Of a stretch of 57,950 nucleotides of DNA, positions 2,690 through 55,738 are shown piece by piece. Origin of the DNA: a virus; the IMG/VR virus record IMGVR_UViG_3300006852_000002, positions 1 to 57,950 of that record; one strand, written 5' to 3'. The notes under the pieces were generated by a model that saw nothing but the letters and a program-made list of their open reading frames with translations, made no database searches and was not told where the DNA came from. The position numbers and the translations under genes are program-made. How positions within the stretch are numbered: position 1 is the stretch's first letter; the number at the start of each line of letters is the position of its first letter.

Positions 2690-2970
2690 CTCGGTATGCT
2701 ATCGGGCGTAGACTGGAATATCTTGTTCGCGATGAACTTATCGAACAGGGTTACTATGTCGTAAGGGCCGCCGGGTCGAAGGGAAAGATTGATCTGGTGG
2801 CTTGGAACGGATACCAGTTCATTCTGATTCAAGTCAAGAAGGGCAAGATAGCCACGAAAGACGAGATAGCGGCCCTTAAGAAACTAAAGAAGCCCAGGAA
2901 CGCTTCTATAGAGTTGTGGCAGAGAGTGAATAATAAATGGGACGTAAAGATAATCCAAAAAGAAAGATAG
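2686..2970 (+). CDS. Hjc-like Holliday junction resolvase / PD-(D/E)XK nuclease
   Basis: 94 residues. GRRLEYLVRDELIEQGYYVVRAAGSKGKIDLVAW followed by FILIQVKKGK shows the N-terminal Glu helix, the GxxDLVA strand with catalytic Asp and the IQVKK strand with catalytic residues of small archaeal-type Hjc resolvases. The start overlaps the preceding stop (ATGA). It is expected to cut four-way junctions before packaging. It is shorter than typical Hjc by some tens of residues, so a general VRR-type nuclease remains possible. Confidence 0.8.
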   Translation: MTRYAIGRRLEYLVRDELIEQGYYVVRAAGSKGKIDLVAWNGYQFILIQVKKGKIATKDEIAALKKLKKPRNASIELWQRVNNKWDVKIIQKER

Positions 2971-3500
2971 AGATAATCGTCGGAGATTCAGCAAAGATAC
3001 TAAAGTCCATACAAAGTGGTAGTATTGATTTAGTATTAACTGATCCGCCTTATGATTTCCCCAAGGATTTACAGAATCAGTATCAATCAGAATTTAAGCG
3101 GATATGCAAGGGGGCTATTATAGTATTCTGTCCGCCCGAGAATCAATGGAGCGACAATCCAGATCAATATTTATTCTGGGAAAAGCCCATCTCAACTAAA
3201 AATACTACGCGCCGCTATTCCAGATTTATAGAAATGATTCTAATCTGGAACGGTAAAACATGGAACGCTGACAGGCACTGGAGTCAGTATACTAATGTAT
3301 TTAAAGATTTAGTGGATGAAACTAGCCTTCATCCATTTCGTAAACCTCCATCGATGATTAGGCGACTCTTACTTAATCATAGCAACCCCGGCAACCTGAT
3401 TCTCGATCCATTCGCTGGATCGGGAGTTGTAGGAGAGGTGTGCGAGGCCGTCGGCAGAAGGTACACGCTAATTGATAAGGTAATTCAGAAAGAGAGGTAA
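2937..3500 (+). CDS. DNA N4/N6 methyltransferase (DPPY type)
   Basis: 187 residues. Motif IV LVLTDPPYDFP lies near residue 35 and motif I LILDPFAGSGVVGEVCEAVGRRYTLID near residue 155, so the catalytic motif precedes the SAM-binding motif, as in beta-class enzymes. It methylates adenine N6 or cytosine N4; the target is unknown. It overlaps the resolvase by 34 nt and is followed at once by a second methyltransferase. No cognate restriction enzyme is visible, so protection of phage DNA is the likely purpose. Confidence 0.88.
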   Translation: MGRKDNPKRKIEIIVGDSAKILKSIQSGSIDLVLTDPPYDFPKDLQNQYQSEFKRICKGAIIVFCPPENQWSDNPDQYLFWEKPISTKNTTRRYSRFIEMILIWNGKTWNADRHWSQYTNVFKDLVDETSLHPFRKPPSMIRRLLLNHSNPGNLILDPFAGSGVVGEVCEAVGRRYTLIDKVIQKER

Positions 3501-5397: not shown

Positions 5398-5410
5398 ATT
5401 TGACTAAAGA

Positions 5411-5448
5411 CACGTATTAGAATATAATACGTGCTGGAGTAGGACTCC
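5411..5448. terminator. Two stem-loops at the end of the rightward unit
   Basis: CACGTATTA (5411-5419) pairs perfectly with TAATACGTG (5425-5433) across a 5-nt loop. Directly after, GGAGT (5436-5440) pairs with ACTCC (5444-5448). Neither has a long T run, so they probably assist the following bidirectional terminator or block 3' exonucleases. Confidence 0.55.
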
Positions 5449-5453
5449 TTCGT

Positions 5454-5496
5454 AAAAAATCCCCTAACTCACCTGCCTGAGCTGGGGGATTTTTTT
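5454..5496. terminator. Bidirectional intrinsic terminator between convergent units
   Basis: AAAAAATCCCC (5454-5464) pairs with GGGGATTTTTT (5485-5495). An inner CTCA/TGAG helix lies in the loop. A-tract and T-tract flanks make it work on both strands, ending the rightward unit and the leftward unit that stops at 5500. Confidence 0.92.
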
Positions 5497-5499
5497 GTA

Positions 5500-6078
5500 T
5501 TAAGCTAAATACGCTATCTTGGGTTTGGGGTCGTTACGAATTATTTTCCAGTATACTTCTTCGGTCATTCTCACATCGGCGGCACAATGCTCAACCAGTT
5601 GACGCATAGCTTCAATGCCCGCTGGAAAGTTCGCTTCCCAGATAATGTCCCAGTGAACTCGGGGATATATTTTAGTTTTTTCTTGGGGGATACCAAAAAA
5701 ATCAGCGAGGTGATCCAGAGCAACAGTGGGTTTACCGATTACATTTAGAGTGGTGCGAAATCCACACCGCTTAGCGCCTAACATCGTATCGTATACTAAG
5801 GGCGGTTTAGGGCGTTTCATGTTCAGAAGCATGGCCCTAGATTTTAAATACGGCCAATCAAATCGCTCTCCATTGTGCATTACAATCAAATCATATTTCT
5901 CAACTTCGTCAAATATTGATTGAAGTAACTTATCTTCGTGCCCTGGGCGACTCTCCATCGGATTCCAAACTAGCATTTTAACCGCTCCGCCCATGGGTTT
6001 AATTCCTGCCATTAGTACCACTCCATCCCCTACCGCTCTAAGACTCGTCGTCTCAATATCGAGCGTAGCTATTTGCAT
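5500..6078 (-). CDS. DnaQ-like DEDD 3'-5' exonuclease
   Basis: 192 residues of the RNase H-fold exonuclease superfamily. Exo I is MQIATLDIETTSL (Asp and Glu at residues 7 and 9). Exo II is LIVMHNGERFDWPYL near residue 70. Exo III is the C-terminal HCAADVRMTEEVYW with its Asp. It degrades single-stranded DNA or RNA from 3' ends. It is the last gene of the leftward unit, away from the polymerase, which has its own exonuclease domain. A role in clearing host nucleic acid or processing ends is therefore possible. Confidence 0.82.
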   Translation of the reverse strand: MQIATLDIETTSLRAVGDGVVLMAGIKPMGGAVKMLVWNPMESRPGHEDKLLQSIFDEVEKYDLIVMHNGERFDWPYLKSRAMLLNMKRPKPPLVYDTMLGAKRCGFRTTLNVIGKPTVALDHLADFFGIPQEKTKIYPRVHWDIIWEANFPAGIEAMRQLVEHCAADVRMTEEVYWKIIRNDPKPKIAYLA

Positions 6079-10065: not shown

Positions 10066-12494
10066 GAACTTATCCCATTTAATAGCTCGCTCCAGTAGGC
10101 CCGAGCGGAGCTGCCAGAATCCGTGCCAGTTATTAGAACTGTGATGTTATTCTCTCCCGGTTGCAATAAAAATTCAGATAGGTTACTGCCCGGAATAACA
10201 GTACTCAAAAGATTGGGGCGGAAGTTAGACGAAAAGGAATTCATTCCTGGACGAATATCTAATACGGCAATCTCGCCGCTATTTAGTAAGAGATTGAAGA
10301 ATATACCTTTTCGAGTTGTATTGTTAATAACAGAATACAAACGACCGGGGCCGACAAAGATAAATTTAACGCTAGATGGAACCTCGGCATTATTTGTGAT
10401 AACAGTTAGGGCTTCGGCAACGGCGCTGCCTGAAGTATCGAATCCCAAAGCCAGTCGTCCATCAGGAGATTCTTTTACGTCATAGACAATGGCGCTACTC
10501 GGCAAGTTAATGCTCACTGGACGAAATGCAGTTCCATTCCAAACAGCTACGTGATCCGGCAGAGAGACGCCGCCCCATGAATCGAATGCCGATCCTGAAA
10601 TGAATAGATTTCCAATACTATCAACGCTTACCATGTAAAGAGCGCCCGCTTGATTTGATCGGGGTATAATTGTATTAAGCGAAAATCCATTCCATTCCTT
10701 TAGTTGCACTTCTCCAAGACCGGATATATCGCCAGTGTATAGGAGACCGTTAGACTTGGCTCGTATCTTTCCGATATTATCTGAAGTTAAACCAGACTGT
10801 AGTGGATTCCAATTCGTGCCGTCGTAAAAAGCAATACTGTTAGTGCCCACAATGCTATTCATTGTATTGAAGGAACCAACAGCATATATTTTTCCGTCTG
10901 GAGCAACACATCCGCCAAACACAAGACCGCTATTCGGAGTTCCGAACTGAGTCCACGAAACTCCATTAAACTTGTAAATACCGGAATCTCCAAAAGCAAT
11001 AATATTGCCGCTCTGATCGATGTCAATATCATAGACAACGCTCACCGATCCAAGCCCGGTTGCCATGGCTGACCAGATACCAGTAGCGATGTCGAATTTT
11101 GCGATATGGTTTACGGTAACTCCGTTGATTGCCACAAAGCCACCACCTGCGTATACAACGGTGCCCGGCCCGATGCGAAGAGATCGAACTTGACGGCTAG
11201 ATATAGAATCATCAGAAATAGATTCCCAAAGTTCTGAGATAAAATTATATCGAGCAATACCCCACGTATCTCCTACTCCGCCCATCTCAGTATAGTCCCC
11301 ACCTACGTATAACTTACCGTCTTGGCCCCACTGTATGGCTTTTACGGCTACTGTGCCTCCAGTGATGCCCGTTCCTAAAGCTCGCCAGTTTCCTTCTCGT
11401 TCCCGAACAATGATGCCGTCACTCTCGGCCACAGTCTCGGACATACTTAATACCGACCCGCTTTGCTTTTCAGAGTATGGGAATCCAATAGTACGAAATT
11501 GAATCGCTACATTTTCTTGAAGTAGGGATTCTATGTTCCCTTCAAGGCCGGTAACATATATACACGGAATGTAAATTGGATACTTTCCAGGAATGTTGGA
11601 ATGATAGACCAAAATCATCGGTTGGTCGGGAGATACCGCATCGTGTTTAATACGATTTATGAAAGACGATATTGAACCCCTAAGATTTGGATATGACAAT
11701 CCATTGAATTGGCCGGTGATGGTAAACTCACGGTTCAGTCGTAAAGTCTGTTGATAAATATCCGAGCCGTCACTTAGAGATATGATTTGATGTTGAATGG
11801 GTGCGGCAGTGAGTCCAACTAATCCGTTTATGTGGAAGTTGAACTCATCGAAGAAAACTTCTTTGCCTCCCGTACGAGAGAAAGAAGCTCTAAAAGATTG
11901 GGATTGATCTGGCAGGCCCAGCCACGAATGCCCAAAGCCTTGATCGCCGTCACAGTAGATAGTTGAATAAGCTTTGTTCTCAACCTGAACTGCATCGAAC
12001 AGAAAAGGAGCCACTGAAGCACTGTTATCTTTCGTAATATACAACCGACGAGTTGAAGCGCCTACAGTATCGTAGTGAGTTACTTCAATATGTTGCCAGG
12101 CTCCGTTTCCAGTGAAGCGAGTTTCCGTTCCAATCAAAGTTCCTGCAGATGTAGCGAAATAAATCTTATATGGAATTCCGGGCGCACCTTTGAACTTTAC
12201 CTGCGCCGTGTAGAAATTATTGATGGTTAAACTTAACGGAGTGTAGTAAACACCGTCGTTGACGGATGTGGTGGGTGTGTATTGGAAAGAGTATACGCCT
12301 TTATATTGATTGGTAGATACGCGAGTTAGAGTACCCGCCCCAGCAACCCAGGCGCTATTGGCAACTTCTGCCGATGGCTGAGTGATGAGGTTAGTTGTCT
12401 CTTCTGGCACGATAATAGAAATCTTACCTTGAGCGGGGAAGAGTTCTACATCTCGTACCACATCCGGGATCGCATTAAAATTTTGTAGTCTCAT
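10062..12494 (-). CDS. Distal tail protein with inserted beta-propeller
   Basis: 810 residues. The first 200 include a carbohydrate-binding-like jelly-roll (NLITQPSAEVANSAWVAGAGTL). Residues about 210-340 look like the N-terminal Dit-type tail ring domain. Residues about 360-680 hold repeated blades of the type LYVGGDYTEMGGV...IARYN, VYAGGGFVAINGV...IAKFD, IYAVGSFNTMNSI...IAFYDGTNW. This is a propeller built of roughly 40-residue units. The final 110 residues (LSEFLLQPGENNITVLITG) match Dit C-terminal domains. It is likely a ring at the tube end, with the propeller and jelly-roll exposed for glycan binding. Confidence 0.75.
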   Translation of the reverse strand: MRLQNFNAIPDVVRDVELFPAQGKISIIVPEETTNLITQPSAEVANSAWVAGAGTLTRVSTNQYKGVYSFQYTPTTSVNDGVYYTPLSLTINNFYTAQVKFKGAPGIPYKIYFATSAGTLIGTETRFTGNGAWQHIEVTHYDTVGASTRRLYITKDNSASVAPFLFDAVQVENKAYSTIYCDGDQGFGHSWLGLPDQSQSFRASFSRTGGKEVFFDEFNFHINGLVGLTAAPIQHQIISLSDGSDIYQQTLRLNREFTITGQFNGLSYPNLRGSISSFINRIKHDAVSPDQPMILVYHSNIPGKYPIYIPCIYVTGLEGNIESLLQENVAIQFRTIGFPYSEKQSGSVLSMSETVAESDGIIVREREGNWRALGTGITGGTVAVKAIQWGQDGKLYVGGDYTEMGGVGDTWGIARYNFISELWESISDDSISSRQVRSLRIGPGTVVYAGGGFVAINGVTVNHIAKFDIATGIWSAMATGLGSVSVVYDIDIDQSGNIIAFGDSGIYKFNGVSWTQFGTPNSGLVFGGCVAPDGKIYAVGSFNTMNSIVGTNSIAFYDGTNWNPLQSGLTSDNIGKIRAKSNGLLYTGDISGLGEVQLKEWNGFSLNTIIPRSNQAGALYMVSVDSIGNLFISGSAFDSWGGVSLPDHVAVWNGTAFRPVSINLPSSAIVYDVKESPDGRLALGFDTSGSAVAEALTVITNNAEVPSSVKFIFVGPGRLYSVINNTTRKGIFFNLLLNSGEIAVLDIRPGMNSFSSNFRPNLLSTVIPGSNLSEFLLQPGENNITVLITGTDSGSSARAYWSELLNGISS

Positions 12495-16424: not shown

Positions 16425-17157
16425 CTAGCTCCCTGTCTTAGAGTTCGATCTCTTAATGGCTATCGCTTCAATTTGTTGATCAATTCTATAAGCAGCTACA
16501 GTGGCGCTCTGTTCCCATCCATCTAAATCGCAGAACTCTTCCCACTTGTAGTTAAAAGTTTTAGCCGCTAATCTGGCTTCCAGTTCCATTGAATACTGAA
16601 AGCCGCTTCTCGGAACATAAATATCAAAAACATTACGTCCCTGAAACGTCGGACGGAACCGCCAAATCGCCTCCTGAATCGCTTTTGTGGCTGGGCTGAC
16701 TGATCCCGGTCACGGCCTCCAAAAAGTGATTAAGATCCTCGGGAGTGATTATACATACATAAGAAACGAATACTTCTAAATCATTCCCTTCTAAATCTTC
16801 GTTTTCACTTTCTTTATAGAAGGAGCGAATCGAATCAACTTTTTTCTTTTCGTCGGGATTCAGCTGATGAACGACGCCCTGAGAGATAACCAATTTACGC
16901 ATCTTCTCTTCCAGCATCAAATTATGATTCAGAAGCGTAATTTGATAATCGGGGTCGGCGGGATTCGATTCCTTTACTATTTTGCCGTTTAACTCAACTT
17001 CAACAACGGGTGCCGGAGGAGTCGTATATTTAGATTGAACTTTAGCGATCAGAATTTGAGATACTTTGTCGATAAAAATCTTAATCCCCGTAGTGGGGAA
17101 AGTATAGGGTTCCACGTCGGTCTTCCTTTCAGGAATATGTAATTTTCGTTTTGGCAT
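16425..17157 (-). CDS. Tail assembly chaperone gpGT-like frameshift product
   Basis: The gpG-like frame (17157-16633) overlaps a second open frame that ends at TAG 16425-16427, just before the tape measure. The extension reads ATKAIQEAIWRFRP, then NVFDIYVPRSGFQYSMELEARL, then KWEEFCDLDGWEQSATVAAYRIDQQIEAI. That is the composition of the T part of phage tail chaperones, and it has no start codon and ribosome site of its own. The reading frame lies +1 (or -2) from gpG. The overlap is open only between about 16709 and 16633, and CAC-AAA-AGC at 16682-16689 is the best slip site there. Confidence 0.8.
16633..17157 (-). CDS. Tail assembly chaperone gpG-like
   Basis: 174 residues, acidic and mostly helical, between tail tube and tape measure genes. 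TTGIKIFIDKVSQILI, then DPDYQITLLNHNLMLEEKMRKL and a C-terminal LEVFVSYVCIITPEDLNHFLEAVTG are typical of chaperones that bind the tape measure and recruit tube subunits. The last 20 residues are low-complexity and lie over the frameshift window. Confidence 0.82.
   Translation of the reverse strand: MPKRKLHIPERKTDVEPYTFPTTGIKIFIDKVSQILIAKVQSKYTTPPAPVVEVELNGKIVKESNPADPDYQITLLNHNLMLEEKMRKLVISQGVVHQLNPDEKKKVDSIRSFYKESENEDLEGNDLEVFVSYVCIITPEDLNHFLEAVTGISQPSHKSDSGGDLAVPSDVSGT
16682..16689 (-). promoter_or_regulatory. Candidate +1/-2 programmed frameshift site
   Basis: On the minus strand the gpG frame reads CAC AAA AGC. Moving the Lys tRNA by one base on AAAA gives AAA GCG in the extension frame. 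A Shine-Dalgarno-like AGGAGG lies about 10 bases downstream, before the end of the overlap. Other slips within 16709-16633 are possible. Confidence 0.55.
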
Positions 17158-31749: not shown

Positions 31750-34211
31750 ACTGCAAAGAGTCTTTCTTTTCGTAGAAGAGTTCCGGTGTTTCGAACTCCC
31801 CAGCGAGATCGTCTCTCAAAGGATAGATCACAGTTTCCTCCGAGATGGGTAAATCTTCGAACAAGGTTTCTCCAGTGGCCGAAGAGCTTTCGATTGCCCT
31901 CGCCTAATGGAAGAGTGTTACCGTCACTCCAATCTAATTCAGGCTGACCAGAAATGTTAAGACGCCATTCAGCGGCAATTGCCTCATTAGTAATGAACTC
32001 GTGGTTACCAATGTAAATATCTTCGTAAGCTTCAATACCGTACTCATAAGTTCCGGGCGGTAGTAAGACTGTCGCGCCTTGCTCCCACCACATAATCCCG
32101 TACAGTTTAAAGTAGTGCATTACTACTGGAGATTTAGAGTTTAAGTAAAGCGTAAATTCATTAGGTGGAAGAAGTTCAGTGAATGGATAGGAGATAACGT
32201 CAGCGCTGCGAAGTACGCCTTCGGGAGCCAACCACGGTGAAAACGGATCTTGTCGATCAAGGCGAGGTTCGATAACATCGTCCTTAAATTTAAACCAACG
32301 ATGTAACGGAACTCGAACATTATCTCTGACCCGAGGCGGTTTTTCTCTATTATCCATGAAAGGAGTATGGAACCCCTCGGTATAGTCACCATTAGGAATT
32401 AAATTTACCGGCGGATCTGTAGCGGTAAACTTCTCCAGGTATCTTTCATTTCTAGCCACACCGCCTGACGACCATCCATCGGGTAAATTATCGTAATCGA
32501 CTTTCCACCAGATTACTTTTACACCACCCAAATCTTTAACTTCTGGCCCGCCGATAATAGTCCCTAAACTTCCCGAGGGTTGAAATCCAACTAGCGGCCC
32601 ACCGGGTTCTTGGCGAACATTGAGAGCTTGCATAGTCCTAACTCGATCTCCAGTTACGAATCGAGTTGAGACAGGCGGTTGAACTGGAATGGGAACGATG
32701 GAATTAACGTAATCAGTAAACTGAGACAGAGTTCCGTGGAAACGATCCCGATCAATTGTAGTTGAAATTCCAGGAACTGATTCCTTAGCCGAGACAGCAT
32801 ATTGGTGAAATTTCCAATCCGTCCAACCCGTTGGCGGAGCGAAATTAAAATTATCCCAAGCTGCGACCCAGAGATCGGCCACCAAGCGAAATACTTTCAT
32901 ATTCCATAAGTCAAATTGATTTTTACGGCCATATAAAATAACTTTGGATAATCCAGTAGCGGCCCGAATCGTTTCAATCCATTGGGATACTTCAAATAAC
33001 ATTTTAGACGAAGGCACACCGTCCAATGTCTCTACATCTAAGACTGGAATCAGATCGCCCGCCTGCATCTTACTTCCAGTTTTACTTAACAGTAGCTCTG
33101 CTTGAGCCTTACCGCTCTTGGACGCCCGGAAATATTGATAAGCGCCCCGAGCAATATTATTCGACTTGGCGTTAATCCAATTACGATCAAACTGAGAGTC
33201 CAGAGATAGGCCATCGCTGACTCGAATATAGGCAAACTTAATACTTGACGTGGAAACTCTAAGCCAGTCAATAGTGCTCTGCCAGTGAGATACGTCAATG
33301 CCTTCAACGAAAATAGATTTGGATGGAGCTGGATTATCAATAACGGCTGCCTCTCGACGAATGTATTCCGCCACCTCTCCAGCAACTGAGGTGCCATTCA
33401 CGTCAAAAGGTCGCCAGTCTTCTCGTCCGGTACCAAAAGTAAACACGCACAGACCTTTAATCCATGGGTACTTACGAAACATCTTATCGGCCCACTGAAG
33501 TTCCCACGAATAGTTAATCTCAGGTCGTTCGCGGAAGTTAATCCCGAACTCGGTCAGAACTACCGGAAGATCGCCAAGCCCATTCGGCTCTAACACTAAA
33601 CGATGCACTTTAATAATTCTGAATACGTCCCAATCCTCGCCGCGTTCATCCACGCCAACGGAGAAAGGCTGATCGCTGTACTCGTGAACACCCAGCACAC
33701 CGTTATATTGCTTAGCAGCTCGGAGTGCAGGTAAGAAAGCTTCCCACAAATCAGTTTTCAGTTCACCAATATCGGGGATACCAACGCTCCAATTCCCAAT
33801 CACTGCTCGCAATCCCATCTCGTGTAACAGACGGCAACGTTCAGCTTCAAAGGCTGCGTACCACTGCATATCCAGAATTGCTTGAGGGCGGTTATTCCAA
33901 TCCCACTGCGGCTCGTTAACCCCTTCCCAAAGTTTAATAAGCGGATTCAGATCGTACTTGGGCTTCTGAACTCCAACGAAAAAGCGGGCAGCCTGAATGG
34001 GATCAAGATGCCGCATATTCTCGCCAGTGATTTCTCGTCCTGGATCATCGGGATAGTTACTCATCTCCCGTCCGATAACTGTAACATTCGGGCCAACTTC
34101 GTGAGCTGCCCCAAAGTCATTAACGCATTTAACAATTAAACACCCGGCATCGATCCATAACTTTGCAGCGGGTGTGGGAACTAAGATATGAGGGCCAAGT
34201 AAGCTAGGCAT
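31746..34211 (-). CDS. Two-glycosidase lysin: GH-A-type barrel, GH25 muramidase, SH3b
   Basis: 821 residues from the ATG at 34211, chosen because GGGAGGTCAATA precedes it. Residues 1-285 look like a clan GH-A TIM barrel, with acid/base motif LWEGVNEPQ near residue 100 and nucleophile motif VVLTEFG near residue 230. Residues about 300-500 are a GH25 muramidase (GIDVSHWQ, LIPVLDVE, YGRKNQFD). Residues about 515-600 are SH3b-like (LNVRQEPGGPLVG). The rest resembles a beta-sandwich binding domain. It should cleave peptidoglycan glycan chains and perhaps an associated polysaccharide. It has no signal peptide and sits between the terminase subunits. Confidence 0.83.
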   Translation of the reverse strand: MPSLLGPHILVPTPAAKLWIDAGCLIVKCVNDFGAAHEVGPNVTVIGREMSNYPDDPGREITGENMRHLDPIQAARFFVGVQKPKYDLNPLIKLWEGVNEPQWDWNNRPQAILDMQWYAAFEAERCRLLHEMGLRAVIGNWSVGIPDIGELKTDLWEAFLPALRAAKQYNGVLGVHEYSDQPFSVGVDERGEDWDVFRIIKVHRLVLEPNGLGDLPVVLTEFGINFRERPEINYSWELQWADKMFRKYPWIKGLCVFTFGTGREDWRPFDVNGTSVAGEVAEYIRREAAVIDNPAPSKSIFVEGIDVSHWQSTIDWLRVSTSSIKFAYIRVSDGLSLDSQFDRNWINAKSNNIARGAYQYFRASKSGKAQAELLLSKTGSKMQAGDLIPVLDVETLDGVPSSKMLFEVSQWIETIRAATGLSKVILYGRKNQFDLWNMKVFRLVADLWVAAWDNFNFAPPTGWTDWKFHQYAVSAKESVPGISTTIDRDRFHGTLSQFTDYVNSIVPIPVQPPVSTRFVTGDRVRTMQALNVRQEPGGPLVGFQPSGSLGTIIGGPEVKDLGGVKVIWWKVDYDNLPDGWSSGGVARNERYLEKFTATDPPVNLIPNGDYTEGFHTPFMDNREKPPRVRDNVRVPLHRWFKFKDDVIEPRLDRQDPFSPWLAPEGVLRSADVISYPFTELLPPNEFTLYLNSKSPVVMHYFKLYGIMWWEQGATVLLPPGTYEYGIEAYEDIYIGNHEFITNEAIAAEWRLNISGQPELDWSDGNTLPLGEGNRKLFGHWRNLVRRFTHLGGNCDLSFERRSRWGVRNTGTLLRKERLFAV

Positions 34212-34333: not shown

Positions 34334-34859
34334 TTTCAACCCCCATTTTTACTACGGGTAAGTTTTCGATGACAACGCCATTCTGTTGAGCTAATGTTGC
34401 TAACACCGGATCAGATTCAATATCGTCCCGAGTCAATCCCATATCCCGAGACACGGTGAGAAATGAATTACGAATATCTACTTCTACGGGCGTCGGAACT
34501 TTGCCCCAACCCCGCTCTAACAGAAGCTCCCGAGCACCATTATTCCCAGACATAGCATCGATGAAAGTAGATCGAATTACGGCTTCAATGCGCGTCCAGC
34601 CCGGTGAGCCTTCAACGGGTTCATTACCAATCTCTCGAATCATTGCGGCGATGGTAGCATTAAATTTTCGATAAGAGACTTTATTAGCTGCATACTTGCC
34701 AATCTCCGTGCTGCCCTGGTCAGCTATCGCGATAAGGGCCGGATTGGCTAAGGGCTTAACCTTATCGGCCTTCACTCGACGGATAGTCTTTTTAAATTTA
34801 CGCCGAGGCTTGACCGGCTCAATCTCAGCGACTTCGTACTGCTTTTTTCTTCCGGTCAT
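34314..34859 (-). CDS. Terminase small subunit (putative)
   Basis: 181 residues. Basic N-terminal tail (RRKFKKTIRRVKADKVKP), then a helical centre and GNNGARELLLERGWGKVPTPVEV, a segment resembling small phage terminase-associated DNA-binding proteins. It precedes the large terminase, separated by the lysin and mini-membrane gene. It would select packaging start sites. Confidence 0.65.
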   Translation of the reverse strand: MTGRKKQYEVAEIEPVKPRRKFKKTIRRVKADKVKPLANPALIAIADQGSTEIGKYAANKVSYRKFNATIAAMIREIGNEPVEGSPGWTRIEAVIRSTFIDAMSGNNGARELLLERGWGKVPTPVEVDIRNSFLTVSRDMGLTRDDIESDPVLATLAQQNGVVIENLPVVKMGVENEKSKT

Positions 34860-36204
34860 TGGAACCTTCCTGAACCTTCACGGGTTGTAGCTCTTCCCAT
34901 GACAGACGTTCTAAGATGAATGAAACATACTCGGGCTTCTTTTCTATTGCGATACCCTTACGGTTATTTCTCTCGCAAGAGATAAGGACTGTTCCAGAAC
35001 CGGCAAACGGATCAAGAACTTTATCGCCCTCCGCTGAATAGGCTTGCACAAAGAAGTCAGCCAGTGAAATTGGAAAGGCAGCTGCATGACCGCCAATCTT
35101 TCCAGCGGTCGCCTCGACTACGTTAGACGGATAAACCAAACCCGGCCCAGTGACGCTGCCACGAATATATCCTTTGCCGCTACCAGTGCTCATCTTTCTT
35201 CCATCAGCGGTGAAAGCAGTTTCAGAATATGTAGCCACATTTTCACGATACACTTTAGGACTGGTCGAGGGACTAAAATGATAAACGGGTTCAAACGCAT
35301 TTTTAAACCTTGTCTTAAAATCCCCCGGAAATGGAGTCTTGACCCAAGACAGCTCGTCAATAAATTTCCAACCACAAGTCCGGCACAGATGAAGAACTAA
35401 ATCCATCACATATAAACTTCGTTCGCCGTCCTCACAGTGCGGTTTGATGTTTAACAGAAAGCTGCCATCCTTCTTCAAAGCTGAGCCGATCCGACCCTGG
35501 ATTGTATGGAACCATTCCACATACTTACTGGCCTCAACTCCGCCATAGGTTTCTTCTCGCTGATCGGCGTAGGGCGGCGAGGTGAAGACCGCTTGCACAG
35601 AAGCCAACCCTACTACATCGAGCCACCAGTCATACGAACAGTCAGTACAGATAATAAGATGTTCCCCGGCTTTCCAAATGTCGCCATCCTTGACCGGCCA
35701 CTTCTTCGCATACTTCTTAATGTTCTCATCATGCTCTTCGACAGCTTCGTTACTCATGCCATTCACCGAAGCTAAGGCATCAGCCTCAGCTCGACGAATG
35801 ATTGCGTTAATCTCAGCGTCAGTCTTAATTCCAGCCAACATTTCCTTTTCGCGTTTAGCTAGGTCGCCTAAGCGTTGATAGTCCCAAGCTGACGATTCTT
35901 GAGTAGCATTGTCGAGTAGACCCATTCGCTCGGCGGCTTTGCCTTTCAGGTCGGGCCGGACAGCAACTAGGATTTGATTCTTTTTAATTTCGACGGGAAC
36001 AAATTCCATGCCCAGCTCAGTGGCCTGTTCAAAGACGCCGTTCCCCGCCCGAACAATTCCATCGGCATCAGCCAGAATTGAACGCCCACCGCCAACTTCG
36101 TTCAAACTCATCCGAATCATTTCTTTGTTACGATCCGGGTGGAGACGATAGTTCTTTTTATCCTTAACAAGTTTTAAGGTTTTACCCTTCTTACTTTTTG
36201 GCAT
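34825..36204 (-). CDS. ParB-like domain fused to DNA methyltransferase
   Basis: 459 residues. N-terminal 150 residues: NYRLHPDRNKEMIRMSLNEVGGGRSILADADGIVRAGNGVFEQA and EFVPVEI, the ParB/sulfiredoxin fold common in phage methylases. The C-terminal half has motif IV VQAVFTSPPYADQREE near residue 215 and motif I KVLDPFAGSGTVLISCERNNRKGIAIEK near residue 405, a beta-class N4-cytosine or N6-adenine enzyme. It overlaps the small terminase by 35 nt, so DNA could be marked as it is packaged, an inference from position. Confidence 0.87.
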   Translation of the reverse strand: MPKSKKGKTLKLVKDKKNYRLHPDRNKEMIRMSLNEVGGGRSILADADGIVRAGNGVFEQATELGMEFVPVEIKKNQILVAVRPDLKGKAAERMGLLDNATQESSAWDYQRLGDLAKREKEMLAGIKTDAEINAIIRRAEADALASVNGMSNEAVEEHDENIKKYAKKWPVKDGDIWKAGEHLIICTDCSYDWWLDVVGLASVQAVFTSPPYADQREETYGGVEASKYVEWFHTIQGRIGSALKKDGSFLLNIKPHCEDGERSLYVMDLVLHLCRTCGWKFIDELSWVKTPFPGDFKTRFKNAFEPVYHFSPSTSPKVYRENVATYSETAFTADGRKMSTGSGKGYIRGSVTGPGLVYPSNVVEATAGKIGGHAAAFPISLADFFVQAYSAEGDKVLDPFAGSGTVLISCERNNRKGIAIEKKPEYVSFILERLSWEELQPVKVQEGSNDRKKKAVRSR

Positions 36205-36437
36205 TAGTTACCCCATCCTTCAAATCCGTACATGCGAAGTAGAAATCGAGAGTCGTGCCAGCCTGGAGTTCCGTTATGTTTTAGAGGTAGGCACTCACAC
36301 GAGAAACAGAAGACTTGATTTTTATGCGGCGGCAGGAAACGTTTACCGCATTCGGGACATAACTTTAAAGTTATCGGCGGCATTGTCTGAACCTTGGAAC
36401 AGACAAACTGTAAACGTAAGTGGTAACTACTAACCAT
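36204..36437 (-). CDS. Small zinc-ribbon protein
   Basis: 77 residues from the ATG at 36437, which follows GGAGTGAGA; longer in-frame starts would overlap the upstream gene with no site. LCPECGKRFLPPHKNQVFCFSCECLP gives a C-x2-C...C-x2-C zinc ribbon. The C-terminal segment is aromatic. Function unknown; possibly a regulator of the leftward unit. Confidence 0.7.
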   Translation of the reverse strand: MVSSYHLRLQFVCSKVQTMPPITLKLCPECGKRFLPPHKNQVFCFSCECLPLKHNGTPGWHDSRFLLRMYGFEGWGN

Positions 36438-36439
36438 TC

Positions 36440-36733
36440 TCACTCCGATACCGGAAGATCCGTTACTTCTACCACTTCTTTTTTGGGCTGACTGTTGGGT
36501 TCGTTGCGAGCGATGGACGCGTTGGCCCACATGATTGCTTCTTCCAGCTTAGTAATAGCTACCGCTCGTTCCCGACTGGCCGGACAATTTTCCATAATCT
36601 CTGTGGCTAAGTTTTTGGCGGCAGTACGGAGAAATACGTAACGTTCCGGCTGATCGTCAATCGGGGGGTGATAAGTAAAAGCCGTTTCTACTTTATCTAA
36701 ATCTTGTTTTGCAACTTTGTATACAAGTCCCAT
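36440..36733 (-). CDS. Acb2/Tad1-hairpin-like cyclic oligonucleotide sponge (putative anti-CBASS)
   Basis: 97 residues. FTYHPPIDDQPERYVFLRTAAKNLATEIMENCPASRERAVAITKLEEAIMWANASIARN has the two-helix hairpin with CPxSRExAxxxTKLEEAxMWANAxIAR that I associate with Acb2-type proteins. These bind cyclic di- and trinucleotides and silence CBASS, and some bind Thoeris signals. It is the first gene behind the leftward promoter, unlike most anti-defence genes, which sit in early units; it would be made with the late genes unless that promoter acts early. Assignment is from motif memory, not a search. Confidence 0.72.
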   Translation of the reverse strand: MGLVYKVAKQDLDKVETAFTYHPPIDDQPERYVFLRTAAKNLATEIMENCPASRERAVAITKLEEAIMWANASIARNEPNSQPKKEVVEVTDLPVSE

Positions 36734-36862: not shown

Positions 36863-37323
36863 TTGCTGTAAGACAGGGAGAATTAGGCTTATTTTACAGA
36901 ACCATTTAGATTTTTGAGAGTAGCAAGGGTATCGTTTAGATTTTGGAAATAGCCCTGGCGTAAAAGAGGGTATCCGTATAAGGAATTTCAATTCTCATAT
37001 TTCGTCTTGTTGGTGGCCTAGCGAATACGAATTTTGAGTAGGTGCGATAGAGCGAAGTCAATAGTACAACGGTCATGCTTCGCGGACTACCCTATTCGCG
37101 AGACAATGCCCATGGTTCATTAACAATTTAGCTCAGAGTACTTTAGGGTATGGTATTGCTCATCTGACTCTAGGCGCGATGGCGCTTTAGCAGCAAAACC
37201 ATAACAGGGTTATCTGTTACTTACCTTACCCTAATCGAATAAGGCTAATACATACGCTACAGAAGGTGGGCGGCTCAAAGTACACTTTCAAACAAATGTG
37301 ACATATAGAATAGGACAATACAC
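36863..37323. other. Divergent intergenic region with structured leader
   Basis: No gene is supported here. A TCGCG...CGCGA inverted repeat lies near 37078-37102. From 37112 to 37234 there are complementary pairs expected of folded RNA: ATGGTT (37112-37117) with AACCAT (37197-37202), TTAGGGTA (37143-37150) with TACCCTAA (37227-37234), GCGC-GATG-GCGC (37174-37185) and AACAG-CTGTT (37203-37218). The first two pairs cross, so together they would form a pseudoknot. TAGAAT at 37306-37311 is a possible -10 box just before the first rightward gene, without a clear -35. Confidence 0.55.
37019..37040 (+). repeat. TAGCGAAT-N9-GAGTA motif, copy 1
   Basis: One of three copies of TAGCGAAT followed after 8-9 bases by GAGTA in the noncoding zone; the others are at 38200 and 38241. 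Possible protein-binding site or iteron. Confidence 0.5.
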
Positions 37324-38134: not shown

Positions 38135-38167
38135 AAAAAAGACTTTCAGAAATGGAAGTCTTTTTTT
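38135..38167. terminator. Intrinsic terminator after the first rightward gene cluster
   Basis: AAAAAAGACTTTC (38135-38147) pairs with GGAAGTCTTTTTT (38154-38166), loop AGAAAT, 13 bp with one G-T. A and T runs on both sides. It isolates genes 37324-38124 from what follows. Confidence 0.92.
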
Positions 38168-38262: not shown

Positions 38263-38434
38263 AAGAAAATATGTAGATACATTATCTAAGTAGTATCCTG
38301 ATAACATTTACTGCCTATACGCTTATTCTTTCTTCTTCCCTCCTTACAGATAATCAGGGGCGGGAATTTTATACGGGGGCCGCTGTTATTGAAATGTTTT
38401 CTCTGGGCTAAAACAACTCCAGGGGCGGCGATCT

Positions 38435-38457
38435 CAGGAATCGATTCCTGTACATCA
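38435..38457. promoter_or_regulatory. Palindrome plus operator half-site upstream of the small RNA promoter
   Basis: CAGGAATCGATTCCTG (38435-38450) is a perfect 16-bp palindrome. It runs into TGTACATCA (38449-38457), whose complement recurs over the promoter at 38515. The two lie about 66 bp apart. Confidence 0.55.
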
Positions 38458-38489
38458 CATCATGTAAGAATACTGCGACCCGATTGCCC

Positions 38490-38518
38490 TTGACAGTTTA
38501 CAGCCGCATGGTTATGAT
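38490..38518 (+). promoter_or_regulatory. Near-consensus sigma70 promoter of a small RNA
   Basis: TTGACA (38490-38495), 17-base spacer, TATGAT (38513-38518). Start predicted at about 38525. This is the best promoter in the window. Confidence 0.8.
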
Positions 38519-38526
38519 GTACATCA
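38515..38526. promoter_or_regulatory. Operator-like palindrome over the -10 box and start site
   Basis: TGATGTACATCA is a perfect 12-bp palindrome overlapping the -10 element and predicted start, the classic place for a repressor. A matching TGTACATCA lies upstream at 38449. Confidence 0.6.
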
Positions 38527-38612
38527 GGTTCTTCGAGCAACCTAGAATTTATTATTATTAATATACAGTTTCGTAAGAATCAAAAAACGACTCACTTTTT
38601 GGAGTCGTTTTT
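38525..38612 (+). ncRNA. Candidate small RNA with own promoter and terminator
   Basis: The transcript would be about 90 nt: a 5' hairpin AGGTT-CTTCGAGC-AACCT (38526-38543), an AU-rich single-stranded stretch, and the terminator hairpin. No start codon with a ribosome site is present. The layout matches bacterial and phage regulatory RNAs. Targets unknown. Confidence 0.65.
38583..38612. terminator. Bidirectional terminator
   Basis: AAAAACGACTC (38583-38593) pairs with GAGTCGTTTTT (38602-38612), loop of eight. It ends the small RNA on the plus strand and the HNH gene on the minus strand. Confidence 0.92.
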
Positions 38613-38634
38613 ATTTTGAATCTCTTTACATGAA

Positions 38635-38868
38635 TTACGATCCGCCCTTCTGTAGAGAGAGTAAAGTTAATTCCCATTTCTTTAGATTTCTGTCGTGAAC
38701 AAGCGTATGATGAAGTAAACATAATGCGACTTCGTTATCTTCTGTCAACGCTTTCTTTCCCTTAGACCTAAATATAATATGATGCTTACCTCTCATCGCT
38801 ATTCGTCCACAGACGATACAGCGGTCTGAAGGGAAATATTTTTTACGGGGTCGATTCTTTTTATTCAT
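38635..38868 (-). CDS. HNH endonuclease
   Basis: 77 residues from the ATG at 38868 (MNKKNRPRKK); an ATG 13 codons upstream overlaps a TATAAT-like box and may instead be promoter. CIVCGRIAMRGKHHIIFRSKGKKALTEDNEVALCLLHHTLVHD shows the zinc Cys pair, the HH of the first motif, the central Asn and the final His of an HNH nuclease. It is alone on the minus strand among noncoding elements, typical of a free-standing homing-type gene. It is short but complete in the motif. Confidence 0.85.
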   Translation of the reverse strand: MNKKNRPRKKYFPSDRCIVCGRIAMRGKHHIIFRSKGKKALTEDNEVALCLLHHTLVHDRNLKKWELTLLSLQKGGS

Positions 38869-39011
38869 AGTTTGTCTTACCAGCGATACGCTTGTCTGAG
38901 CAATCATTATAACTCAGTTTGTAATGCTAGACTTCGGCTGGTATACTTCTGTCTGTACCTTAACAATTTAACCTGACTAGTGTGCAAGGCAGGCAAACAA
39001 GTCAGAAAATA

Positions 39012-39017
39012 TATAAT
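39012..39017 (+). promoter_or_regulatory. TATAAT box of the large RNA
   Basis: Perfect TATAAT in AAAATATATAATG. The predicted start at about 39024 coincides with the first base of a hairpin. No convincing -35 box at normal spacing, so an activator or phage factor may be needed. Confidence 0.55.
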
Positions 39018-39023
39018 GAGAAA

Positions 39024-39724
39024 TGGACGGTCTGAGCTTCACCGCCATAAGTTCTACGCTCTGCATTCGTCAGGGGGCGTCAGCGAAATTCTCCTACCGA
39101 AGGGTACTGCGACTGGCAGCAAGAGAATGTAGCGAACAATAGCGCAAGTGATCGACGGCTGGCAATAGGTTACAGCGTCGGACGAATGGTAACGAGATAA
39201 AATGGCGGCATCACTCAGATTGTAGCGACCAACACTAAGCTACATCACGGAATCATTATATGTAATCTGATAGGTAGAAGCCGTAAAAAGTTCGCGAGAA
39301 CCATGGACAATGAACTCGTGAAGAATAACCTATAGGCGAGTCGCAGAGAAGATGACACAGAGACGATAAAGCTGCAATTGCTGATTGAACGTAATTCTGA
39401 CAAAATTACGCACAGTTAAAGACCCCATGCGATTTTCAAAAGATTCTGGCATTGCGACCAGACCCACAAACCGTAAGATGTTACGGTGCGTTAGATAATC
39501 GCGGTAGCTCAGACGCGAAACTTACCCCTTAAGGTAACGTCTACGCGGAGTCTACCAAGGCGGCGAGCGCGAAGGACACATAGGTATCTGCGATGGTTAC
39601 GGAATTAATTCCTTACGAGAGAGTTCCTTATATCCGTAACTCAGCTAAAGGAAACCTTTTCAGAACTTATTAGAGCGGGAGGTAGGCGAGAAAATAAAGA
39701 ATCGCTTATCTTCCGCTATTTTTG
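39024..39724 (+). ncRNA. Large highly structured RNA candidate (about 700 nt)
   Basis: No credible coding frame over about 1 kb, yet many local helices. These include TGG(a)CGGT/ACCGCCA 39024-39047; CGAC(G)GCTG/CAGCGTCG 39153-39180; CAGATT/AATCTG 39216-39269 around TGTAGC/GCTACA; GTTC-GCGA-GAAC 39290-39301 with a GNRA loop; CGTAATT/AATTACG 39390-39410; TCTGG/CCAGA 39445-39462; CCGTAA-GATG-TTACGG 39471-39486; TTACC/GGTAA 39522-39537 inside AGACG/CGTCT; GTTACGGA/TCCGTAAC 39596-39640; AAAGG-AAA-CCTTT 39647-39659; and the terminator at 39675. TATAAT lies just upstream. GOLLD and ROOL RNAs are phage RNAs of this size, often near tRNAs; membership is untested. Confidence 0.7.
39675..39723 (+). terminator. 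Intrinsic terminator of the large RNA
   Basis: GCGGGAGGTAGGCGA (39675-39689) pairs with TCGCTTATCTTCCGC (39702-39716): 15 bp with three G-U pairs, 12-nt loop, then TATTTTTG. The G-U pairs would be mismatches on the other strand, so the functional transcript is rightward. Confidence 0.85.
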
Positions 39725-39729
39725 TTTAC

Positions 39730-39785
39730 GGGGCATGAGTACCTGGCGGCTTCCGGTGAGGCGGGTTCGATTCCCGTATGCTCCA
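39730..39785 (+). tRNA. tRNA-like element lacking a D-arm
   Basis: GGGGCAT (39730-39736) pairs with ATGCTCC (39778-39784) as a 7-bp acceptor stem with one G-U and discriminator A. GCGGG-TTCGATT-CCCGT (39761-39777) is a canonical T-arm. Only 24 nt lie between: linker GAGT, ACCTG-GCGGCTT-CCGGT (a 5-bp stem with one T-C mismatch, 7-nt loop) and GAG. That is the plan of a D-armless tRNA; read so, the anticodon would be GGC (Ala), but loop position 33 is C, not U. CCA is not encoded (CTT follows). It may be a tRNA mimic or a decayed tRNA. Confidence 0.6.
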
Positions 39786-40079
39786 CTTGTTGACGATAAA
39801 GGAGAGCTTCTCGTTATGCTGGCATCAGGGTAAACAATAGCCAATTTCCCGCGCGGTGAGTTGCCCGAAAAACGTATAGATATAGAATTCGTGTTTCAAT
39901 AGGACGAATAGATTATCGCTACAATACGAAGTAAGTTGACCTAGATAATAGCGAGAAGTTCTTCTGTGTCGTCAACGGCACGAAGGAGGCGGCCTATGTG
40001 GAGCGTAGGGGGATAAAAGCTCCGATACTCTATCCTTACTGTTATAACACTTATGAATTACGCTAAAGGAGATACGACA
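39786..40079. other. Structured noncoding segment after the tRNA-like element
   Basis: No gene. GTTGACGA (39789-39796) can pair with TCGTCAAC (39969-39976), closing a 190-nt domain. Inside are ATTCGT/ACGAAT near 39887-39909 and TCGCTA/TAGCGA near 39916-39953. GGAGC/GCTCC near 39999-40023 lies downstream. It may be the 5' leader of the gene at 40080, or a further RNA domain. Confidence 0.5.
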
Positions 40080-52910: not shown

Positions 52911-54092
52911 ATGAACTGGACTTCCACTTCGGAAATTGTGGCCGGTCAGATATTCACGGGAAAAGTGAGTTGGAACTCAGTGAACCCAGATCGGCTGTGC
53001 GAACCGTATGCAACAGTAATTCGTAAGTTTAGAAACAAAAGAAAGACCCCCAGCTCCGAAGAAGTAATTGAAGTAATTAAACCTGATGCTTGGATTGCGG
53101 CGATTGAAGCTTGCGAGAAATCAGGCAAGCTACCTGCGGACTGGTTAGCCGTGCTTGAAAAGACCGCCATTGCCACGGATATTGGTGACACGTTAGTTAA
53201 GACGGGCCGCAAGATGATTGAAAACGGCAGCGGAGATTTAAGTCATCTATTCACTCTTCTATCCAAGTCTGACGAAGGAATCGATTCCTGGGTGATCGCC
53301 AGCGACGTAACCCCCGAAGAAAATTTCTTCTACCCAACTGGATTCGAGCCTTACGATACATGGCTAGGCGGATTACCTCATGGATTAACAATTGTCGCCG
53401 GGCCGCCGGGAACGGGAAAGACCACGTTAGCTTTACGTTTAGTAGAATGTCGGGCAAGACAGAAGAAACGTACCGCCTATTTCACCATGGAAATGTTAAA
53501 CGCTCAATTGGTGAAACGGGCCATGGAAGTAGGCGTTTCAAAGTCAGCTCTAAAATACCTCTGGCTCTACGATAAGCAAATTTCTCCCAATGATGTAAGC
53601 GCCTTAGCTTATCGCACCCCCGAAGATGCCGATTTAATAATCGTTGATTTCGCTGAGTTAATGCTCATGGGCGATTCGGTGATTAGCGACGGCACAATGG
53701 GCCAGATGTATCAAACGATGGCTTGGTTAGGGAAGAACATGGGCAAAACAGTTTTACTGTTAGCTCAACTTAATCGTCGTTATGACGGTAACCTACCAAC
53801 CATTAATATGATTCGTTACAGCGGTATGGCTGAAGCATTGGCTTCGCTGATCGTACTGCTGTATAATCCGAATCAGGTGTACGTCAACCCCGATACGGCC
53901 AACTTGTTACCCATTGACGAATTCTCGGCTTACCAGATTATCGGTAAGAGTCGTTACGGATTTAAAATGGGCGGGGTGGGAGCGATTCAAATTCCATGGG
54001 ACGGAGCTTTAGGTTGGGTTAATAACGCTAAAAGTTTCTGGCACTATCTAAGTTCCGCTAAAGTTAATAAATTAGCAGAAGGAGCTAGATGA
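52911..54092 (+). CDS. DnaB-family replicative helicase
   Basis: 393 residues. An N-terminal helical domain of about 110 residues, then a RecA core: LPHGLTIVAGPPGTGKTTLALRL (Walker A) near residue 165, FTMEMLNAQLVKRAM, DADLIIVDFAELM (Walker B) near residue 245, LLLAQLNRR and GMAEALASLIVLLYNP. This is the gp4/DnaB layout. Overlaps the polymerase by four bases and follows the primase by 12. Confidence 0.9.
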   Translation: MNWTSTSEIVAGQIFTGKVSWNSVNPDRLCEPYATVIRKFRNKRKTPSSEEVIEVIKPDAWIAAIEACEKSGKLPADWLAVLEKTAIATDIGDTLVKTGRKMIENGSGDLSHLFTLLSKSDEGIDSWVIASDVTPEENFFYPTGFEPYDTWLGGLPHGLTIVAGPPGTGKTTLALRLVECRARQKKRTAYFTMEMLNAQLVKRAMEVGVSKSALKYLWLYDKQISPNDVSALAYRTPEDADLIIVDFAELMLMGDSVISDGTMGQMYQTMAWLGKNMGKTVLLLAQLNRRYDGNLPTINMIRYSGMAEALASLIVLLYNPNQVYVNPDTANLLPIDEFSAYQIIGKSRYGFKMGGVGAIQIPWDGALGWVNNAKSFWHYLSSAKVNKLAEGAR

Positions 54093-55738
54093 AGCCTTAT
54101 AAAATTATCGAAGGGGTGCCGCCTAAGCAGCGGAGTGGAACAGCCGCTATCGATATTGAAATGTTCGGCTTGGATAAGCGACAACTTCACCGACCCAAAG
54201 GAAAACTTGCCTGTGCTACTATATGTCTAGATGGTAAGACAGTTTACTATCTGGAAAAAGAATCTCAAGTTGAAAAAGCACTCGCTAATATCAACGGGTG
54301 CCGTTGGGTATTTCACAACGGTAACTTCGATATACGTCACTTAAGGCGATGGGCCGACATTCCGCCAAGGGATGCGGATCACTATTGGGACACCCAATAC
54401 ATAGAGCAGATTATGTATTCAGGTTGGTTCGATAGTTTCGCTTTGAATGACTTGTCTCGCCGTCACCTGGACAATCCAATGGGAAAAGATACCCGACAAC
54501 GCTTCATTAAGGGCGACCCGATTGACGACGAAATGATGTTATATGCCGCGACTGACTCGCAGGCAACCTGGCATATTCAGAAGAGTCAAGAAGGTCTAAT
54601 CGAAGAATCTCAATTCAAAATATGGAAAGAGATCGATATGCCCGCATTCTGGGCTATCCTTGACTTCAAAGGGATTCTGATTGACCAGAAGAAATGGAAG
54701 AAGTTAGCGGAGTTCAATCAGTCCGAACGAGAGCGAGTTGCGGGGGAGTTAGGATTCAATCCTGGATCTCCACAGCAGACAAAGGTTGCTTTGGAGAAAT
54801 CAGGAATTCGTGTAGAATCCACGAAAGAGGGATTTCTACTTCCTTACAAAGACAACGATTTAGTTCAGCAAATTCTCTACTATCGCGAGTGTGCAAAGCG
54901 AGCTTCGACTTATGGGAGTGATTACTTAGAGTTAGTCGAAGAAGATGGTCGCCTATATCCGTCCTTCAATCTAATCGGAGCCGAGACGGGCCGCATGAGT
55001 TCCGATTCACCGAATATTCAGCAAGTTCCAAAAGAAAAAATATACCGTGAATGTTTCATTGCTGATGGTAAGATGGTGATCGCGGATTTCTCTCAACAGG
55101 AGATGAAAATAGCGGGGCAACTTTCCAAGAATCCGTACCTGCTGGAGGCGCTAATGTATGAGGACGTGTACACCAGGATGGCGCAGGATATGTATCACGA
55201 TCCAAAGATTACGAAGAAAGATCCCCGACGAGGTAGAGCGAAAATTGTGGCGTTAGGCATTCTCTACGGACTGACGCCCTATGGATTAGCATATCGAGAG
55301 CAGATAACCGTGGGAGAAGCCGAGCATCTGTTTCAATTGTTCTTTAATCGCTATGCAGGAATGTCACAATTTATAGATAGCATGAAGCGAACGGCATCGA
55401 AAGACTGGAAAGCTCGGACTATTGCGGGCCGTGTGTTTCATTTGAATTCAAACTTCAAGCGCTGGGCAAACAACGCAGTGAACTCACCCCATCAAGGCAC
55501 TGGGGCGGATATGGTGAAAGTAGCTTTAGGCATTCTCCACAAACAATACGGAAGTAAGCTGCCGTTGATCGCTCCGGTTCACGACGAGTTACTAGGGGAA
55601 ACTTCAAAAGATAAGGCTAAAAAATTAGCGACAGATGTTCAGCGGGCTATGACGCACGCATTCGAGTTGTACTGTCCCGACATTAGCTCTAAGAGTGTCG
55701 TGGATATTCATATTGGGCGGAGCTGGGCTGATAAGTAG
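54089..55738 (+). CDS. Family A DNA polymerase
   Basis: 549 residues. The 3'-5' exonuclease domain (about 1-180) has AIDIEMFGL, FHNGNFDIRHL and MLYAATDSQATWHI. The polymerase domain has motif A MVIADFSQQEMKIAGQLS, motif B RRGRAKIVALGILYGLTPYGLA and motif C LIAPVHDELLGE. Aligning motif B to E. coli (KAINFGLIYG against KIVALGILYG) puts Leu where E. coli has Phe762. No 5' nuclease domain, as usual for phage. It is the replicative polymerase of this genome. Confidence 0.94.
   Translation: MKPYKIIEGVPPKQRSGTAAIDIEMFGLDKRQLHRPKGKLACATICLDGKTVYYLEKESQVEKALANINGCRWVFHNGNFDIRHLRRWADIPPRDADHYWDTQYIEQIMYSGWFDSFALNDLSRRHLDNPMGKDTRQRFIKGDPIDDEMMLYAATDSQATWHIQKSQEGLIEESQFKIWKEIDMPAFWAILDFKGILIDQKKWKKLAEFNQSERERVAGELGFNPGSPQQTKVALEKSGIRVESTKEGFLLPYKDNDLVQQILYYRECAKRASTYGSDYLELVEEDGRLYPSFNLIGAETGRMSSDSPNIQQVPKEKIYRECFIADGKMVIADFSQQEMKIAGQLSKNPYLLEALMYEDVYTRMAQDMYHDPKITKKDPRRGRAKIVALGILYGLTPYGLAYREQITVGEAEHLFQLFFNRYAGMSQFIDSMKRTASKDWKARTIAGRVFHLNSNFKRWANNAVNSPHQGTGADMVKVALGILHKQYGSKLPLIAPVHDELLGETSKDKAKKLATDVQRAMTHAFELYCPDISSKSVVDIHIGRSWADK

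Follow-up and report, generated by a model that had tools for sequence, protein, structure and literature searches.

Phage-encoded small RNAs (sRNAs) are well documented, with lambda OOP, lambda PreS, P22 sar and VP882 VpdS among the described cases, and Hfq binding together with effects on host RNAs has been reported for PreS and VpdS (PMC12197685). Here we describe a locus at positions 38490-38616 of the IMG/VR virus record IMGVR_UViG_3300006852_000002, analysed over its whole length of 57,950 nt (the window), whose candidate small RNA may be a new case of this kind, outside the Rfam families. The phage is uncultured and has no close known relative. Its window is a complete circular genome with a 50-bp terminal repeat, mostly at 43-49% G+C; the structural genes run leftward from about 36.7 kb, and the early and replication genes run rightward from about 37.3 kb, across the record ends, as far as 5.2 kb. 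The locus sits in non-coding DNA close to the divergent junction. In its way of working, the candidate RNA would come closest to lambda OOP or other phage sRNAs (PMC12197685; PMC3985674). With OOP, in which a short RNA runs from the pO promoter to the tO terminator, it shares a promoter of its own, a short and apparently untranslated RNA, a terminator and a position in the regulatory and replication part of the phage genome. However, OOP is antisense to cII, whereas the candidate RNA crosses no called gene, lies tail to tail with an HNH endonuclease-like gene and has no sequence relation to OOP. An antisense RNA of the OOP type was ruled out, as the predicted RNA ends at 38616 and the HNH gene at 38635. 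Like PreS and VpdS, the candidate would be encoded by the phage and would presumably act on RNAs of the host or of the phage itself; Hfq binding and effects on host RNAs are reported for those two, whereas the candidate is known from its sequence. P22 sar is likewise a small non-coding RNA encoded by a phage, but it is antisense to the ant messenger RNA, and the candidate is without an evident antisense partner gene. A different kinship is with replication origins: the anatomy of the locus matches T4 oriF (PMC3016281). Both oriF and oriG combine a promoter with a downstream A+T-rich element near a transcriptional strand switch, as the locus does, but they use a MotA middle promoter, whereas the locus has a consensus -35 element and an immediate terminator.

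Based on its anatomy, we propose that the locus may be an autonomous phage sRNA gene under operator control, a reading that we regard as evenly poised between right and wrong. A short, terminated, non-coding transcript would be the most economical reading of the parts (Table 1). An earlier, sequence-only reading had described a TTGACA-N17-TATGAT promoter, an 11-bp terminator and a span of about 90 nt without a protein gene, and all three are present. The -35 (38490-38495) and -10 (38513-38518) hexamers match the consensus at 11 of 12 positions with the ideal 17-bp spacer, the terminator is strong, and ATG, GTG and CTG are all absent from the RNA span, whose sole TTG sits within the terminator. 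The same reading had called the promoter the strongest of the window; it is the joint strongest, since sites at 5400 (+) and 11026 (-) also score 11/12. Three such sites in the whole window compare with about 1.1 expected by chance, and at this scale promoter matches on their own are not remarkable. The real non-coding DNA holds two of them (38490 and 5400); when pooled non-coding DNA was shuffled, at least one promoter of 11/12 appeared in 113/2000 shuffles and two in 0/2000.

Table 1. Features of the candidate sRNA locus and its flanks (positions in the window).
Feature	Position	Strand	Basis or remark
Perfect 16-bp palindrome CAGGAATCGATTCCTG, possible distal protein-binding site	38435..38450		sequence
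Inverted repeat TACAT-N6-ATGTA, possible upstream operator	38451..38466		half-site TGTACATCA in common with the -10 palindrome
Sigma70-type promoter TTGACA-N17-TATGAT, 11/12	38490..38518	+	sequence match and shuffles
Perfect 12-bp palindrome TGATGTACATCA, operator-like	38515..38526		spans the -10 and the predicted +1
Predicted non-coding RNA, about 91 nt	38526..38616	+	start inferred from -10 spacing; fold
Predicted long closing stem 38527-38536 / 38571-38581 around an AU-rich loop	38527..38581	+	folding
AT-rich body	38542..38576	+	among the genome's joint AT-richest 30-mers (26/30)
Intrinsic terminator, 11-bp stem, 8-nt loop, T-tract	38583..38612		bidirectional; common to the convergent HNH gene
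Convergent HNH endonuclease-like gene, 90 aa	38635..38907	-	transcript would stop at terminator 38583-38612

To judge promoter and terminator as a pair, we defined a unit as a promoter that scores 11/12 or better and has a terminator stem of 9 bp or more no further than 130 nt downstream. The window contains one such unit, and Markov shuffles contain none (0/100). Real phage DNA is a fairer yardstick than shuffles for this frequency, and loci of phages with a related terminase, 1.75 Mb in all, yielded four units, about 0.13 per 58 kb; the unit is therefore uncommon but not unique. Of these four, one is mostly intergenic (L134), one overlaps the start of an open reading frame (ORF; L122), one stands leader-like ahead of a same-strand gene (L113) and one lies on the strand opposite ORFs (L124). 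At our locus the terminator starts 64 bp past the -10 and, read on the minus strand, follows the HNH stop codon by 23 nt, and the stability of its hairpin is about equal on the two strands (-13.7 and -12.6 kcal/mol). Because the + genes upstream already terminate at a terminator-like hairpin at 38135-38166, it is not obvious which transcripts other than the candidate RNA could reach the + strand terminator at 38583. In its DNA the locus thus shows what is expected of an intergenic phage sRNA gene, with a promoter and a terminator of its own around a non-coding stretch.

The RNA is predicted to end at 38612-38616, via the 11-bp stem and the T-tract. Folding of 38525-38616 gave -22.1 kcal/mol (z = -4.35), and none of 200 shuffles was equally stable; much of this low z comes from the terminator. 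In prefix folding a 5' hairpin (38526-38543, -3.5 kcal/mol) forms first and is displaced from about 55 nt on by the long closing stem, which in the full RNA is 3.7 kcal/mol better. The hairpin start described in the sequence-only reading is thus predicted for the nascent RNA, but not for the full RNA. A 54-aa minus-strand ORF (38558-38722) overlaps the RNA; it is without supporting evidence and was not called as a gene. The operator claimed for the locus corresponds to real dyad symmetry over -10 and +1, the palindrome TGATGTACATCA, and two more dyads lie upstream; its use as an operator is what we infer. Nine perfect 12-bp palindromes occur in the window, TGATGTACATCA and the core of CAGGAATCGATTCCTG included, and in the two junction regions examined only three inverted repeats have arms of at least 8 bp, CAGGAATCGATTCCTG and the terminator among them. 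The centre of TACAT-N6-ATGTA lies 62 bp, about six helical turns, from that of the -10 palindrome, and this spacing together with the shared half-site suggests that the two sites may be bound cooperatively. At up to three mismatches, CAGGAATCGATTCCTG has five sites (38435-38450, 53275-53290, 10234-10249, 16959-16974 and 32771-32786) versus 0.25 expected. Only the first is clearly non-coding, and since the other four apparently fall inside coding sequence we do not claim a shared operator.

How would such a gene work? We envisage that host sigma70 RNA polymerase initiates around 38526 and halts at the terminator; as the promoter is of the host type, this would probably happen early in infection. 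The product would be an untranslated RNA of ~90 nt, AU-rich in its middle and ending in the 3' terminator hairpin. The RNA gene would be switched off by a dimeric protein that binds the DNA at TGATGTACATCA and may also occupy the dyads that lie 60-75 bp further upstream. In trans, the RNA would affect host or phage RNAs, either by pairing with them or by tying up an RNA-binding protein, for example Hfq. Several points weigh against this proposal. The terminator may be there for the HNH gene only. No homologue of the RNA to align was found in phages, in the viral_contigs pattern scan or in the related phages and genomes searched. Among 73 phage start regions no convincing target emerged, the best pairing energy being reached by 17/100 shuffled RNAs, and pairing with the adjacent long non-coding region was not above shuffles. 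Where the sequence-only reading took a regulatory RNA to be natural, a non-coding transcript fits the anatomy; the regulatory part finds no backing in these homologue and target searches.

Relatives were sought at several levels. Against phages, neither 36.5-41.5 kb nor 38300-38660 had a significant blastn match, and the promoter-plus-palindrome pattern had 0 matches in viral_contigs. Single-protein scans with the neighbouring 166-aa protein, the terminase, a 596-aa protein and the DNA polymerase found no relatives, and the scan with DnaB found two only, both weak. Terminase profile scans uncovered a real clade in IMG/VR, with nearer members at about 45-58% identity, and further members in genome bins labelled Anaerolineae, Chloroflexi, Hydrogenedentes, Zixibacteria and Methanothrix; these bins are possibly contaminated, so that their labels do not settle the host. 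The early region beside the locus was found in none of the terminase-clade relatives searched, and the DNA polymerase of the window had no match in the whole records of 25 clade members. Rfam gave no family match at gathering score across the window; low-threshold matches over the RNA (MCS4, Phe_leader and STnc350, E 0.7-2.2) were taken as chance.

The strongest rival is a transcription-primed replication origin, a reading that we consider unlikely. In it, RNA made from the promoter would enter an AT-rich unwinding element, where DNA synthesis would begin from an R-loop or RNA primer; the dyads would bind an initiator, and the short RNA would be a by-product. The T4-type succession of a promoter and an A+T-rich element at a strand switch is found here as an arrangement only, and the richness of the RNA body in A+T, the proximity of the locus to the divergent strand switch, the cumulative GC-skew minimum at 36227 and the UvsX-like recombinase, primase, DnaB-like helicase and DNA polymerase that the phage itself encodes would all suit an origin. 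However, GC skew tracks gene orientation in this genome and is therefore not independent evidence, small RNAs, too, commonly have AU-rich linkers, and the described T4 elements have no immediate strong terminator. Moreover, no iteron array was found: an array of TTAGCGAAT was considered and dropped, with just two copies of this type about 250-300 bp upstream and one weaker copy at 37018.

It is rather unlikely, in our judgement, that the locus makes no small RNA at all, its promoter-like sequence being weak or idle and its hairpin serving just to terminate the HNH gene. Such a view is helped by the chance expectation of about one 11/12 match in the window and by the nearly equal quality of the hairpin on the minus strand, just past the HNH stop; it sits poorly with the rarity of so good a promoter in non-coding shuffles and with the failure of window shuffles to produce the ordered pair. 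We think it improbable that the locus is an attenuated leader whose terminator acts as a conditional gate, with read-through carrying transcription into the long non-coding region and the operon that runs rightward from 40053. That operon does lie downstream, the predicted nascent and full folds are mutually exclusive as in attenuators, and L113 carries a comparable unit ahead of a same-strand gene. But the terminator arms take no part in the competing folds, read-through would cross the HNH gene antisense, the nearest downstream + gene is 1.4 kb off, and a separate extended -10 promoter candidate lies at 38919-38947.

Elsewhere in the window, the convergent junction at 5400-5500 holds a second compact arrangement, in which TTGACT-N17-TATAAT precedes about 65 nt that show no obvious gene. 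A 9-bp inverted repeat (5411-5433) covers the -10, and the arrangement also has a small hairpin and a strong terminator (z -4.0). It is improbable that the units at the two switch points (38490-38616 divergent, 5400-5500 convergent), each made up of promoter, short structured RNA and terminator with a dyad over the -10, form a paired RNA control system in a lineage whose early region has no known relatives. Beyond the HNH gene, 38908-40052 comprises 1.1 kb without a convincing gene. It contains a transfer RNA (tRNA)-like element of only about 59 nt (39730-39789), whose acceptor stem (7 bp) and T arm fit the transfer-messenger RNA model at 20.9 bits (E 5.6e-6; the gathering score of 47 is not reached) and in which ARAGORN finds no tRNA. 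The 777 nt upstream of this element exceed shuffles in fold stability (z -4 to -5, with some coding controls at -4.0). No GOLLD or ROOL match was found in 38908-40052, and a giant structured RNA of that kind is only a lead from folding. Near the locus, 36440-36733 (-) encodes a protein with an Acb2/Tad1 hairpin domain (Pfam E 8.8e-19), likely an anti-CBASS or anti-Thoeris sponge. One protein, encoded at 34825-36204 (-), has both ParB-like and DNA methyltransferase matches; a second methylase-like gene, of the N6/N4 type, is at 2937-3500. The genome encodes a DNA polymerase (54089-55738, +) and a DNA polymerase exonuclease-type domain (5500-6078, -) in two separate genes, which lie far apart and on opposite strands.

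What would the locus mean for this group of phages? Whichever reading applies, the evidence is anatomical, and comparable units occur in related phages. To our knowledge, essentially nothing is known of phage RNA regulation in Chloroflexota. If the locus is transcribed as an sRNA gene, it would provide an early non-coding RNA of an unstudied phage lineage whose structural-gene relatives come partly from Chloroflexota genome bins. If it is instead an origin, it would mark a testable position for the start of replication.
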